Assembly: GCA_021737045.1 (NCBI GenBank)
Contig: JAIPES010000010.1
Span: 1 to 53,602 of the forward strand
Length of the DNA stretch: 53,602 bases
Direction: 5' to 3'
Source: Desulfobacteraceae bacterium
Lineage (GTDB): Bacteria; Desulfobacterota; Desulfobacteria; Desulfobacterales; Desulfosalsimonadaceae
In this document: positions 15,412 through 51,784 of the stretch, one piece after another
Numbering within the stretch: the first letter of the stretch is position 1
Layout: the number at the start of each line of letters is the position of its first letter
Notes under the pieces: model-generated
What the model was told of the DNA's origin: nothing
The model's database searches: none
Seen by the model: only the letters and a program-made list of their open reading frames with translations
Made by a program: the position numbers and the translations under genes

Positions 15412-15940
15412 AGGTTGACGCTTTTTCCGAGGCAGAGGCCAGCCGGGTTGCTGCCGGCACCAGCGATGAGGTGCTGCGCCTGGGGCTGTCTGCCGAATAC
15501 GAAGTGGATCTGTGGGGTCGTATCCGCTCGGAAGCCGATGCCGCACGGTTGCGGGCTGAGGCGGGCCGTGAAGCTTATCGCACGGCTGCGGTTTCTTTGT
15601 CTGCTGAAGTGGTGCGCACCTGGTACCAGCTTGCCGAGGCCTGTGCCCGGCTTCGGTTCCTGCGGGACCAGATTAATGCCAATGAAAAAATCCTTTCCCT
15701 GATCCAGAGCCGGTTTGACAACGGCCAGGCCGACGGGGCTGATGTGATCCGCCAGGATCAGCTCCTGGAATCCACACGGGAGCAGGCCCATATTGCAAAA
15801 TCTGCAATCGGTGTTTTCAATCACCAGCTGGCGGTGCTGCTTGGCCGGTCTTTTGACAAAAAGGCCGGCTGCCTGTCTTCCAGACTTCCCGATCTTCCCT
15901 CCTTGCCGGAAACCGGTGTTCCCTCGCAATTGCTGAGAGG
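15412..15940 (+). pseudogene. Outer-membrane efflux protein (NodT/TolC family) fragment
   Basis: The frame that is open from about 15412 encodes the middle of an RND-type outer-membrane factor: [67 protein letters not shown] and [11 protein letters not shown], ending at PSQLLR where intact homologues continue with RRPDI. Both the N-terminal signal region and the C-terminal half are missing. The 5' break coincides with a repeat element, and the 3' break joins directly to RND permease remnants. A GTG at 15471 opens a 297-codon frame that reads through into the permease fragment, so a chimeric protein is possible but unlikely to function. Confidence 0.85.
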
Positions 15941-16001
15941 TCTATGTGAGCTATCCCGGCGCCGACCCGGCGGAAGTGGAACAAGGCATCCTGCTGCCAG
16001 T
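15940..16001 (+). pseudogene. RND efflux permease, N-terminal scrap
   Basis: In the frame beginning at 15940 the sequence reads [20 protein letters not shown], which is the conserved start of the first periplasmic domain of RND pumps (about residue 40-60 in AcrB-type proteins). This frame differs from that of the flanking fragments and lasts only about 20 codons. It shows that the permease gene originally followed the outer-membrane factor gene and lost nearly all of its length between this point and the next fragment. Confidence 0.75.
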
Positions 16002-16364
16002 GGCATCCTGCTGGGCTTTGATCTGTCGCTGATCAGCCTCATGGGCATTATCGCCCTGTCCGGCGTGGTGGTCAACGATTCATTGATCATGATCCATTAC
16101 GCAAATCAAAAAAGAGCCATGCATTCGGCTTTTGACGCCATTCACCAGGCCGGACTGCGGTGGTTCCGGCCCATTGTGCTCACCACCCTGACCACATTCG
16201 GGGGTCTGACCCCCATCATCCTGGAAACTTCCCGGCAGGCCGCCTATCTCATCCCCATGGCCATTTCCCTGGGCTTTGGCATCGTGTTTGCCACTTCCAT
16301 CATTCTGGTCATTGTGCCCTGCCTGTATTTGGTAGTGGAAGATATCGCAGGACCTGGCGGATAA
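16002..16364 (+). pseudogene. RND efflux permease, C-terminal fragment
   Basis: The 120 residues [20 protein letters not shown] to the stop, including [38 protein letters not shown] and [16 protein letters not shown], are the last membrane segments of an RND permease. About 900 residues that should lie between this and the N-terminal scrap are missing. It is in frame with the outer-membrane factor fragment. The 12-base word GGCATCCTGCTG occurs at 15985-15996 and again at 16002-16013, right at the join, which hints at a deletion through short direct repeats. Confidence 0.85.
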
Positions 16365-17423: not shown

Positions 17424-17591
17424 ATCCCGGCATGGGCAGTACGATAGCCGGGCCGGATCTTAATCGTTGATGTTTTTCCTATCGGACAGGCCGGACTGTT
17501 CTTTAGGTGTCGTCTGAAAAATTTTACAATAACCTGGATCGGCGGGCAATTCAGCGCTTTTGCGGAAACGGTTTTCAGCAGGCGGGCTTTT

Positions 17592-18682: not shown

Positions 18683-18778
18683 GCCCTGCCCCTTGTGGTG
18701 GTTAACGGGTTTTTCCGGAAGTGATTTTACAACCACTTCCAACAATGTAAAAGAAAAAAGGTTGGAAATGGGCTTTTT

Positions 18779-28423: not shown

Positions 28424-28452
28424 TTGACGGCATCACGGTCAGTAAATATATT
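28424..28452 (+). promoter_or_regulatory. Sigma-70 promoter of secA
   Basis: TTGACG (28424-28429) and TATATT (28447-28452) are 17 bases apart. The start point near 28459 gives a leader of about 95 bases that is almost filled by the heptameric array at 28475-28544. Confidence 0.65.
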
Positions 28453-28474: not shown

Positions 28475-28544
28475 CCTGAACATTGAACGTTGAACGTTGA
28501 ACGTTGAACGTTGAACGTTGAACTTTAAACCCTGAACCTTGAAC
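28475..28544 (+). repeat. Heptameric tandem repeat, ten units, in the secA leader
   Basis: The units in order are CCTGAAC, ATTGAAC, five of GTTGAAC, TTTAAAC, CCTGAAC, CTTGAAC; the period of 7 bases is unbroken for 70 bases. The central units are identical, the outer ones diverged. The array ends where the Shine-Dalgarno AGGA begins, nine bases before the secA ATG. Confidence 0.95.
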
Positions 28545-28553
28545 AGGAATTCC

Positions 28554-31091
28554 ATGGCAGCACTTGCCGCAGGCAATTTTTTAACCAAATTATTCGGCAG
28601 CAAAAACGAGCGGGTCCTAAAAAAGCTCTACCCGGTGGTCGATGCGGTCAACGCCCTTGAAACCGAATACGCGGCCATGAGCGATGCGGATCTGGCGGCC
28701 CAGACCCCCTTGCTCAAATCCCGGTACCAGCAGGGAGAGTCCCTTGAGGACCTGCTGCCCGACGCCTTTGCCGTGGTTCGCGAAGCCTCATGGCGCACCC
28801 TGGAAATGCGCCATTTTGACATGCAGATCCTGGGGGGCATTGTCCTGCACCAGGGCAATATCGCGGAGATGAAAACCGGTGAAGGAAAAACCCTGGTGGC
28901 CACCCTGGCCATTTATTTAAACGCCCTGACCGGAAAAGGCGCCCATGTGGTGACGGTCAACGATTACCTGGCCCGGCGCGATGCCGAGTGGATGGGGAAG
29001 ATTTACCGCTTTCTGGGCATGAGCGTGGGCAATATTGTCCACGGAATGAACGACCAGGAGCGCAAGGAGGGCTACGCCTGCGATATCACTTACGGCACCA
29101 ACAACGAGTTCGGTTTTGATTATCTGCGCGACAACATGAAGTTTGACAAGGAATCGCTGGTGCAGCGTGAACTTCACTTTGCCATTGTCGACGAGGTCGA
29201 CAGCATCCTTATCGATGAGGCACGCACCCCTTTGATCATTTCCGGGCCTGCGGAGAAATCCACGCATCTGTATTACCAGGTCAACAGCATCGTTCCCCAC
29301 TTAAAGCCCGAAGAACACTACACGGTGGATGAGAAGGCCAAATCCGTGACCCTGACCGATGCCGGTGTGGCCATGGCCGAGCAGCAGCTCCAGGTGGAAA
29401 ATCTCTATGATCCCAAAAACATTGAACTGCTGCACCATGTCAACCAGGCATTAAAGGCCCATGCCCTGTTTACCCGTGATGTGGACTACATCATCAAGGA
29501 CAACCAGGTCATCATTGTTGATGAATTCACCGGCCGGCTCATGCCGGGCAGAAGATACAGTGAAGGGCTGCACCAGGCGCTGGAGGCCAAGGAAAACGTT
29601 AAAATCGAAAACGAGAACCAGACCCTGGCCACCATCACCTTTCAGAATTTTTTCCGCATGTATGACAAGCTTTCGGGCATGACCGGCACGGCCGATACCG
29701 AGGCCGCGGAATTCAAGAAGATCTACGATCTCGACGTGGTCATCATTCCCACCAATGAGCCCATGATCCGGGAGGATTATCCGGATGCGATATACATGAC
29801 CAAAAAGGAGAAATACGATGCCGCCATCGAGGAGATCATCGAGTTAAACCGCGTGGGCCGTCCGGTACTGGTGGGAACGGTTTCCATCGATGTTTCGGAG
29901 TATTTAAGCGATTTGCTCAAAAAACGGGGTGTTGCCCACAATGTGCTAAACGCCAAAAACCACGAGGCCGAAGCCGAGATCATCGCCAATGCCGGCCAAA
30001 AGGGAGTGGTGACCATTTCCACCAACATGGCCGGCCGGGGAACCGACATCGTGCTCGGCGACGGGGTGGTGGAACTCGGAGGCCTGCATATCCTGGGTAC
30101 TGAGCGTCATGAGAGCCGGCGGATCGACAACCAGCTTCGGGGCCGTTCCGGGCGGCAGGGCGATCCCGGTTCTTCACGATTCTATCTCTCCCTGGAAGAT
30201 GATCTGCTGCGGATCTTTGGCGGCGAGCGGATTTCCGGGATCATGAACCGCATGGGCATGAACGAGGGCGAGCCCATCGAGCACAAGATGATCTCCCGGG
30301 CCATTGAAAACGCCCAGCGCAAGGTCGAGGCCCACAATTTCGATATCCGCAAGCAGCTCCTGGATTTCGACGATGTGATGAACCAGCAGCGGGAAGTGAT
30401 TTACCGCCAGCGCCAGCAGGCATTGAGCGACGACAGCCTCCGGCCGGTAATCCTGGAAATAATCGAAGAAAAGGCCGAACAGATTGCCTGGACCTATGTC
30501 GAGGAAAAAAAACCGCCCGAGCAGTGGGATTTAAAGACCTTGTCAGATGCCGTGTTCAGGCAGTTTAATTTTAAAATCGATTTGAGTCCCGGACGCCTGG
30601 AAGGACTGGATGCTGAGGTTCTTGCCCGCCGGATTGCAGATGAAGCCACAGCGGCCTATCACGACAAGGAAAAAATGCTGCCTGAGGAAGAATTTCGTCA
30701 CCTGGAGCGCATTGTTATGCTCCAGACCGTGGACAGCCTCTGGAAGGATCATCTGCTGTCCATGGATCATCTAAAGGAGGGCATCGGGCTGCGCAGTTAT
30801 GCCCAGCAGGATCCCCTGATGGTTTACAAGCGCGAAGCCTTTGACATGTTCCAGGAGATGATCGACCGGATTAAAGAGGAAACCCTCAAAATATTGTTCC
30901 GGATTCAGATTGCGCCCTCTGCCGAAGTCGATGACCTGGTTCAGCCCGAAGAGCAGGAAATGTCATTTTCCCACGGCAGCGGCGAGGCAGCGGCCAAAAA
31001 GCCACACAAGCGCCAGGCGGCCAAGGTGGGCCGCAATGATCCCTGCCCCTGCGGCAGCGGTAAAAAGTACAAGAAGTGCTGCGGCAAATAG
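28554..31091 (+). CDS. secA: Preprotein translocase ATPase SecA
   Basis: SecA drives secretory proteins through SecYEG with ATP. The 845-residue protein shows [20 protein letters not shown] (Walker A), [20 protein letters not shown] (Walker B), and [12 protein letters not shown] and [19 protein letters not shown] of the second nucleotide domain. The C-terminus carries the zinc/SecB-binding tail [17 protein letters not shown], complete. The ATG at 28554 is chosen over an upstream TTG because AGGA precedes it and the product begins [16 protein letters not shown]. Single gene between two terminator-bounded units. Confidence 0.97.
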
Positions 31092-38880: not shown

Positions 38881-39140
38881 AACGCTTTGAAGAGCTGTTT
38901 TGGCAATTGCAGCAAAAGAAGAAAACCGCGGATCCGGATTCGGGCACCGTGGCCCGTCTGGCCCAGGGGCCCCATGAGATCGGCAAGAAACTGGTGGAAG
39001 AAGCCGGCGAGGTCTGGATGGCGGCCCGGTACGAAAGCCGGGAGCAGACCGCAGCGGAAATCGCCCAGCTGCTCTATCACACCCAGGTTATGATGCTGGC
39101 CTGTGACTTGAGCCTTGAGGATATTTACCAGCACCTTTGA
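38877..39140 (+). CDS. hisE: Phosphoribosyl-ATP pyrophosphatase
   Basis: HisE hydrolyses phosphoribosyl-ATP in histidine synthesis. The 87-residue all-helical protein has the MazG-like metal motif KKLVEEAGEVWMAA and the family's AEIAQLLYHTQVMM. Its ATG overlaps the leuD stop by four bases. Histidine genes are scattered here; hisN-like lies at 50.2 kb. Confidence 0.92.
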   Translation: MKRFEELFWQLQQKKKTADPDSGTVARLAQGPHEIGKKLVEEAGEVWMAARYESREQTAAEIAQLLYHTQVMMLACDLSLEDIYQHL

Positions 39141-39160: not shown

Positions 39161-39200
39161 TTTTACAGGCAGTGTTAAGTTTTTACAGGGAGTGTTAAGT
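39161..39200 (+). repeat. Tandem 20-bp duplication
   Basis: TTTTACAGGCAGTGTTAAGT (39161-39180) is repeated at 39181-39200 with one substitution (GGC to GGG). It forms the edge of the longer inverted repeat copy at 39180-39249. Confidence 0.85.
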
Positions 39201-39249
39201 TTCAAGTGATTAAGTGTTAAGTAAAATCAAGAAGTTATTTTTTTTATTG
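39180..39249 (+). repeat. AT-rich dispersed repeat, copy 1 of an inverted pair
   Basis: These 70 bases match the reverse complement of 44367-44435 with about four substitutions and one extra T. The inside is built of GTTAAGT-type words of about 7 bases. The two copies enclose 5.1 kb with both hsp20 genes and the first three catabolic genes. Confidence 0.88.
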
Positions 39250-44182: not shown

Positions 44183-44199
44183 GATGGCGCCGTAAAAAG
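44183..44199 (+). repeat. Terminal motif GATGGCGCCGTAAAAAG
   Basis: A 17-base motif that recurs as GATGGCACCGTAAAAG at 15295 and 51742, GATGGTGCCGTAAAAAA at 51768 and GATGGCGCCGTAAAAAG at 53357. It looks like the terminal inverted repeat of a MITE-like element; here it borders the 137-base copy at 44204-44340. Confidence 0.85.
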
Positions 44200-44203
44200 C
44201 TTT

Positions 44204-44340
44204 TTACCGCGTCCGCTGTTGTTGCAGGAAGGAAGCCCTGCGGCCGGGGTCAGTTTTTTCGCTCCTGACCGTTTACGGAGGTTTCCGTAAACGCTCAATG
44301 TCGCTTCAAAAACCGACCCCGCCCTTAGACTTCCTTAGAA
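44204..44340 (+). repeat. 137-bp dispersed repeat (half B), copy 1 of an inverted pair
   Basis: This matches the reverse complement of 53466-53602 with four substitutions over 137 bases. It contains the palindrome CGTTTACGGA-GGTT-TCCGTAAACG at 44270-44293. It lies in the 338-base gap between the carboxyltransferase and the HMG-CoA lyase-like gene and may also act as a transcription barrier there. No coding capacity. Confidence 0.92.
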
Positions 44341-44366
44341 GGCCTAAAACTGGCATGAGCGCCATT

Positions 44367-44435
44367 CAATAAAAAAATAACTTCCTGATTTTACTTAACA
44401 CTTAATCACTTAAAATTTAACACTACCTGTAAAAA
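44367..44435 (-). repeat. AT-rich dispersed repeat, copy 2 of an inverted pair
   Basis: The reverse complement matches 39180-39249. It is followed by AAAAAAGACTTTTTACAGGCG, which resembles a degenerate right end (CTTTTTACGGCGCC) of the MITE-like family. Located just upstream of the heptameric array that precedes the HMG-CoA lyase-like gene. Confidence 0.88.
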
Positions 44436-44458
44436 AGACTTTTTACAGGCGTATCAAC

Positions 44459-44500
44459 CCTGAACATTAAACCTTGAACCTTGAACATTGAACTTTGAAC
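44459..44500 (+). repeat. Heptameric tandem repeat, six units, before the HMG-CoA lyase-like gene
   Basis: The units are CCTGAAC, ATTAAAC, CTTGAAC, CTTGAAC, ATTGAAC, TTTGAAC, with an exact 7-base period. The consensus NTTGAAC is that of the array before secA. The array ends four bases before the ribosome-binding site AGGGGGG of the gene at 44516. Confidence 0.92.
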
Positions 44501-51741: not shown

Positions 51742-51784
51742 GATGGCACCGTAAAAGTCTGATTTCAGATGGTGCCGTAAAAAA
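51742..51784 (+). repeat. Tandem pair of GATGGYRCCGTAAAA motifs
   Basis: GATGGCACCGTAAAAG (51742-51757) and GATGGTGCCGTAAAAA (51768-51783) lie 26 bases apart, start to start. The pair looks like two ends of the MITE-like family without its inside. GGCACC and GGTGCC pair to form a hairpin which on the minus strand is followed by ATCCTTTTTG, so it may terminate the ABC gene. Confidence 0.8.

Follow-up and report, generated by a model that had tools for sequence, protein, structure and literature searches.

The cyanobacterial STRR heptanucleotide repeats are intergenic heptameric tandem repeats. Heptamers of another type, GGGNATC, were described in Xanthomonas and Nostoc, where the arrays contained 2 to 26 units and were dispersed and mostly intergenic (Rehm et al. 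2015; PMC4692102). These arrays were located almost exclusively nearer to the 5' neighboring ORF, regardless of the ORF orientation (28 versus 160 nt), formed inverted pairs, and differed in length among close relatives (PMC4692102). TAACTGA heptamers, which were described in Beggiatoaceae, cyanobacteria, and Bacteroidetes, were found mostly just before starts (147 sets faced starts and 12 faced stops), and a role in translational regulation was suggested (MacGregor 2015; PMC4679880).

Here we describe NTTGAAC heptamer arrays, starting from one in the leader of secA. The window, which is the whole 53,602-nt stretch of DNA that was analyzed, was contig C6 of G000, a 2.86-Mb draft genome with 148 contigs and 88% completeness. 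As with GGGNATC, the NTTGAAC unit was a heptamer with few variable positions, and the arrays were dispersed, variable in length, found in inverted pairs, and much closer to one neighboring ORF irrespective of its orientation. The sequences of the two families were unrelated and they occurred in different phyla. In addition, the G tracts of GGGNATC can form a G-quadruplex, whereas NTTGAAC and its complement have no runs of three G nucleotides and hence cannot. The four-unit preference of GGGNATC was not evident among the tabulated NTTGAAC arrays of at least three units, and NTTGAAC was tied to MITEs, whereas the GGGNATC study found no link to mobile elements (PMC4692102).

In the case of TAACTGA, both families consisted of direct heptamer repeats before starts, including those of essential genes, both were patchy across phyla, and both had stop codons in every forward frame and none in the reverse frames. 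However, the sequences differed, and NTTGAAC had no start bias, as stops were at least as frequent. The STRR repeats were also intergenic, heptameric, and tandem, and they differed in sequence and lineage. MITEs and REP-like elements resembled the arrays in that they were dispersed and intergenic, with inverted ends and with empty sites in relatives, but the arrays had no fixed body or clear target-site duplication. A literature search using the repeat letters found no paper on such a repeat, judging by titles and abstracts. On the basis of these comparisons, NTTGAAC appeared to be a new sequence family within an already known kind of repeat, and it follows the same polarity law as GGGNATC.

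The array in the secA leader

Table 1. Features of the window that are discussed in the text
Feature	Position	Strand	Basis or remark
Putative secA promoter, TTGACG-17-TATATT	28424..28452	+	Consensus scan; position conserved upstream of secA in congeners
(NYTRAAC)10 heptamer array, secA leader	28475..28544	+	Direct reading of the sequence
AGGA, putative Shine-Dalgarno sequence, adjoining the last unit	28545..28548	+	Sequence; also 3' of the array in G002, G004, and G005
secA	28554..31091	+	Pfam SecA domains
AGTGTTA heptamer array, part of another dispersed element	39191..39222	+	Genes on either side converge, ending at 39140 and 39354
Composite MITE-like element (GATGGCGCCGTAAAAAG ... CTTTTTACAGGCGTATC), inserted in the 44.46-kb array; remnants AAACATT (left) and AACCCT (right)	44183..44455	+	Comparison with G004 and G002
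ACTTAAC/GTTAAGT heptamer array within the 44183..44455 element	44393..44424	-	Inverted counterpart of the 39191 array; about 90 nt before the gene start
Second array of the NTTGAAC family, 6 units	44459..44500	+	15 nt 5' of the start of an HMGL-like gene (ATG 44516); 1 unit in G004, 2 in G002

An earlier note on this DNA described ten in-phase heptamers between a predicted secA promoter and the AGGA, and the sequence and the promoter scan bore this out (Table 1). The units were, in order, CCTGAAC, ATTGAAC, five copies of GTTGAAC, TTTAAAC, CCTGAAC, and CTTGAAC, all in a single phase, and the last unit was followed without a gap by AGGAATTCC and the ATG of secA. The identical center and decayed outer units that the note had pointed out were also seen, as the five central units were the same and the variation was confined to the outer ones. 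Chance was a poor explanation for the array, in agreement with the note: there were 20 local matches compared to 4.4 expected from shuffles, and the pattern TTGAACNTTGAACNTTGAAC had 169 overlapping three-unit matches in the G000 genome, compared to 0 for the reversed pattern.

The gene behind the array, secA, is a housekeeping gene and not a surface or antigen gene of the type associated with phase variation. An Rfam search of the secA leader returned zero matches at E values up to 1. The leader folded weakly (z = -1.74), and this fold was due to AACGTT, a self-complementary string in the G-type units that most other copies lacked. A known RNA leader was rejected on these two grounds. No array was present in five congeners (G001, G003, G006, G007, and G008), although these had secA with a similar promoter. 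The Rfam result, the weak fold, and the array-free congeners gave no support to a role tied to secA. An inverted partner array was looked for in the secA spacer and was absent, and the array itself had no MITE-type terminal inverted repeats with a target-site duplication.

Two other arrays with a 7-base period were thought to occupy the same place before other genes in the window. This was true only of the array upstream of the HMGL-like gene; the AGTGTTA array was located between converging genes, and the ACTTAAC array was located in a dispersed element (Table 1). The array-bearing genes identified in the window, secA and the HMGL-like gene, had no evident common function. AGTGTTA and ACTTAAC represented a second heptamer family, and the 39-kb site of G004 carried a different MITE.

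In the units of G000, base 1 was C in 122 cases, T in 37, A in 18, and G in 11. Bases 2 to 7 each matched TTGAAC in more than 97% of the units, which was partly due to ascertainment because most of the counted units were found via a neighboring TTGAAC. When units flanked by perfect ones were considered, few deviated at bases 3 to 7. In G010, an array-rich relative, base 2 was also C in about 13% of the units. The pattern resembled a hexamer of fixed sequence, set apart by one-base spacers, more than it did a microsatellite in decay. Invariant bases 2 to 7 beside a free base 1 are unlike the products of neutral decay, and they hint that TTGAAC is recognized by something. The leading string AACCCTGAACATTGAACGTTGAAC occurred in identical form at secA and at the unlinked locus C136 and in nearly identical form at C8, a hint that sequence has been copied from one locus to another.

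Unit number variation and mobile elements

Unit numbers were compared across congeneric species, and the growth and loss of units that the earlier note had proposed were observed. The secA array had 10 units in G000, 4 in G002, 3 (plus a MITE) in G004, and 2 in G005, and AGGA was located at the array end in all four of these leaders. The SecA proteins of G000 and G004 were 98% identical. Unit numbers also differed at 44.46 kb (6 in G000, 1 in G004, and 2 in G002) and at loci L013 (8/2/2), L022 (at least 19 versus 3), and L043 (9/3). The genomes were drafts, one per species, and these were length differences between species. The array tables were limited to arrays with at least three units, and the tabulated lengths ranged from 3 to 25 units. 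Between species, units were gained and lost at a fixed place, and slippage is the presumed mechanism.

A separate element, a MITE with the ends GATGG...CCATC, used the arrays as targets. Its target was about 6 bp, and the flanks of 112 MITE ends yielded the consensus AANNTT. Each array unit supplies AACNTT, which is an AANNTT-type site, and MITEs were located exactly at AACNTT^GAAC in the secA and L013 arrays of G004 and occupied corresponding positions at L052 and 44.46 kb. The target-site preference raised in the earlier note thus stood in part, in the sense that the arrays themselves were good targets for an AANNTT-preferring MITE. The converse idea that the arrays were 7-bp target-site duplications of the MITE was ruled out by the duplication of about 6 bp and the AANNTT consensus.

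Copies of this MITE were located at 17.46 and 18.76 kb in G004, where they were flanked by duplications of 6 to 7 bp (AGGTCTT and AAGGTT); G000 lacked both copies, and positions 17458 to 17464 and 18758 to 18764 of the window were empty sites. Judging by this comparison, the GATGG...CCATC family has moved recently. A short GATGGCACCGTAAAA fragment of the MITE family at positions 51744 to 51779 of the window was absent from G004. At positions 15937 to 16004, about 4.5 kb that was present in G004 (C2) was missing in G000.

Thirty arrays were inspected in G000, and roughly half of them formed an internal module of a composite MITE-like element that was itself dispersed (...GCCGCATGCTTAAAAGCTTTGATTTTATTTT[TTTGAAC...]GAAGTTATTTAGAAG...), and some of the other arrays abutted stop codons. 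In G002, the 44.46-kb spacer consisted of only two units, and the stop codon of the upstream gene was located in the first of them. The composite element of G000 apparently entered at this place and displaced the upstream gene.

Blocks of the form [GTTCAAN]n-core-[NTTGAAC]n with both ends were present at L048, L051, L052, and L009. At L048 and L051, the outgroup spacers were roughly 20 to 40 nt long and array-free, and the block was carried by G000 and, at L051, by G002 as well. At L052, the spacer of G002 was empty, the block was present in G000 and G004, and G005 had a MITE plus three units at the right-hand edge. Excision instead of insertion was possible at L052 because G005, which is more distant, has an array there. 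The spacers of G010 had a similar plan, and REP-like palindromes (GTAGGGGCGGACCTGCGTGTCCGCCC, GGGATTCACATCCCGAC, and GGGCGATTCACGAATCGCCC) were packed between inverted heptamer arrays in spacers such as L110, L118, and L135.

Placement of the arrays relative to gene edges

Genes were called with a small home-made codon-usage caller, which was checked by eye on the window, and the arrays were listed from exact patterns, which favored regular arrays. The "...TTGAAC" end of the arrays pointed to the nearest gene edge, whichever direction the gene ran. In G010, the TTGAAC side was the nearer one to a gene in 64 of 69 arrays and the farther one in 5 (P = 4e-14). This and the other polarity P values are optimistic, given that the arrays of a single genome are not independent of one another. 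The TTGAAC end was at most 40 nt from a gene in 55 of the 69 arrays, and the opposite end was within this distance in 1. When arrays were placed at random in the same spacers, 12 ± 3 near-gene ends were obtained, and the placement of the arrays was therefore nonrandom, as the earlier note had supposed. The TTGAAC side was also the nearer one in G000 (19:4; P = 0.003) and in a multi-phylum sample (59:17; P = 1e-6), whose 76 arrays were obtained by scanning GTDB genomes with an exact pattern; the ratio in this sample was 44:15 when Desulfobacterota were removed. Permutation nulls for G000, G010, and the multi-phylum sample agreed with this polarity. One set of sampled stretches left out known array-bearing contigs, and the absence of arrays in that set was not an estimate of density.

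The 55 near-gene arrays of G010 faced an antisense stop in 38 cases and a sense start in 17. This result spoke against a function specific to the Shine-Dalgarno sequence. A role tied to the Shine-Dalgarno sequence or to secA also fit poorly with the many arrays that were located inside a dispersed element. When only tandem gene pairs were considered, arrays in the sense orientation were located near starts and those in the antisense orientation near stops (Fisher P = 3e-8 in G010 and 7e-5 in the multi-phylum sample); therefore, neither promoter avoidance nor a message-strand signal explains the polarity. Stop codons inside the arrays were rejected as the cause of the orientation because they would suit starts and not stop edges; in our own reading of their sequence, GGGNATC arrays have no stops on either strand. 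Inverted array pairs were present in G000 and in G010, and they were common in G010. We infer that the polarity reflects a directional process at the DNA level, either directional insertion or the presence of blocks that end in inverted arrays, and not a signal at the mRNA level.

In this way, a curiosity at secA led to a general and testable rule, which is gene-edge polarity at the DNA level and not ribosome placement. The finding of the same rule in unrelated heptamers and distant phyla suggests a common directional process, as yet unnamed. We tentatively consider it possible that unrelated heptamer families (NTTGAAC, GGGNATC, and perhaps TAACTGA) obey one cross-phylum architecture, with mostly fixed bases plus a free one, gene-edge polarity, and often inverted pairs. 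If true, this would suggest that heptamer arrays are written or spread at gene borders by an unrecognized enzyme or element that acts directionally.

Explanations for the secA array

The explanation that we favor, with a probability of roughly 0.6, is that the array at secA represents a single locus of a dispersed, spacer-borne (N-TTGAAC)n variable-number family that is varied by slippage, tolerated, targeted by MITEs, and subject to a DNA-level polarity. Units would be gained and lost through slippage, and arrays would persist because spacers tolerate them provided that the stop codon and the Shine-Dalgarno sequence plus start stay spared. Mobile elements entering the arrays would then displace the other gene, and directional insertion or inverted-end blocks would produce the polarity. 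At secA, each unit of the array would add 7 nt to the leader, ahead of a Shine-Dalgarno sequence that stays intact, and the array may, as a side effect, alter expression a little. The retention of an array directly 5' of AGGA in four species counts against a tolerated repeat, and it could reflect selection. The fixed bases 2 to 7 beside a free base 1 count against it as well. More generally, a slippage repeat can act as a MITE landing pad that leads to larger spacers, and a repeat beside a ribosome-binding site need not be a translational regulator.

It is doubtful, but within reason, that a non-autonomous mobile element of the form [GTTCAAN]n-core-[NTTGAAC]n inserts in short spacers and has the arrays as its terminal inverted repeats; single arrays such as that of secA would then be solo or decayed ends. 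Such an element would account for the outward polarity and the nearness to genes, and it is consistent with the abundance of inverted pairs in G010, with the two-ended blocks, and with the empty or short spacers of sister species. However, no transposase was linked to the arrays, and the secA array had no inverted partner upstream. In addition, the cores differed among loci and no clear target-site duplication was seen. For these last two reasons, the entry of inverted-end blocks into short spacers, which would directly explain the outward polarity, is a model and not a result.

A minority rival, which we consider rather unlikely, is that the array is a regulatory element of the leader. According to this explanation, repeats before the Shine-Dalgarno sequence bind an RNA-binding protein (S1, Csp, or Csr type) or set ribosome standby or spacing, and the unit number tunes SecA. 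The location of the array in the predicted leader, the AGGA at its end in four species, the nearly invariant TTGAAC core, and the published parallel of the TAACTGA heptamers in Beggiatoaceae (PMC4679880) are in its favor. However, antisense stops outnumbered starts in G010, such that the transcribed form of most copies near genes would be GUUCAAN, located in 3' regions, and the array-free secA leaders of five congeners, the weak fold, and the lack of an evident common function among the array-bearing genes of the window also stand against it. A tolerated DNA repeat that also draws small mobile elements is more likely than a secA regulator.

A pure neutral microsatellite, generated by slippage from chance seeds in spacers without directionality or constraint, would fit the changes in 7-bp steps and the commonness of heptameric SSRs in bacteria (PMC4692102), but it is quite improbable given the polarity (unless the gene caller was at fault), the restriction of variation to base 1, the presence of the NTTGAAC family in many phyla, and the leading units shared by the unlinked secA and C136 loci.

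The reversed control pattern, CAAGTTN, was itself a large heptamer family in G254, G189, and G298 (same order), with 386 matches in G254. These three genomes host other heptamer families.
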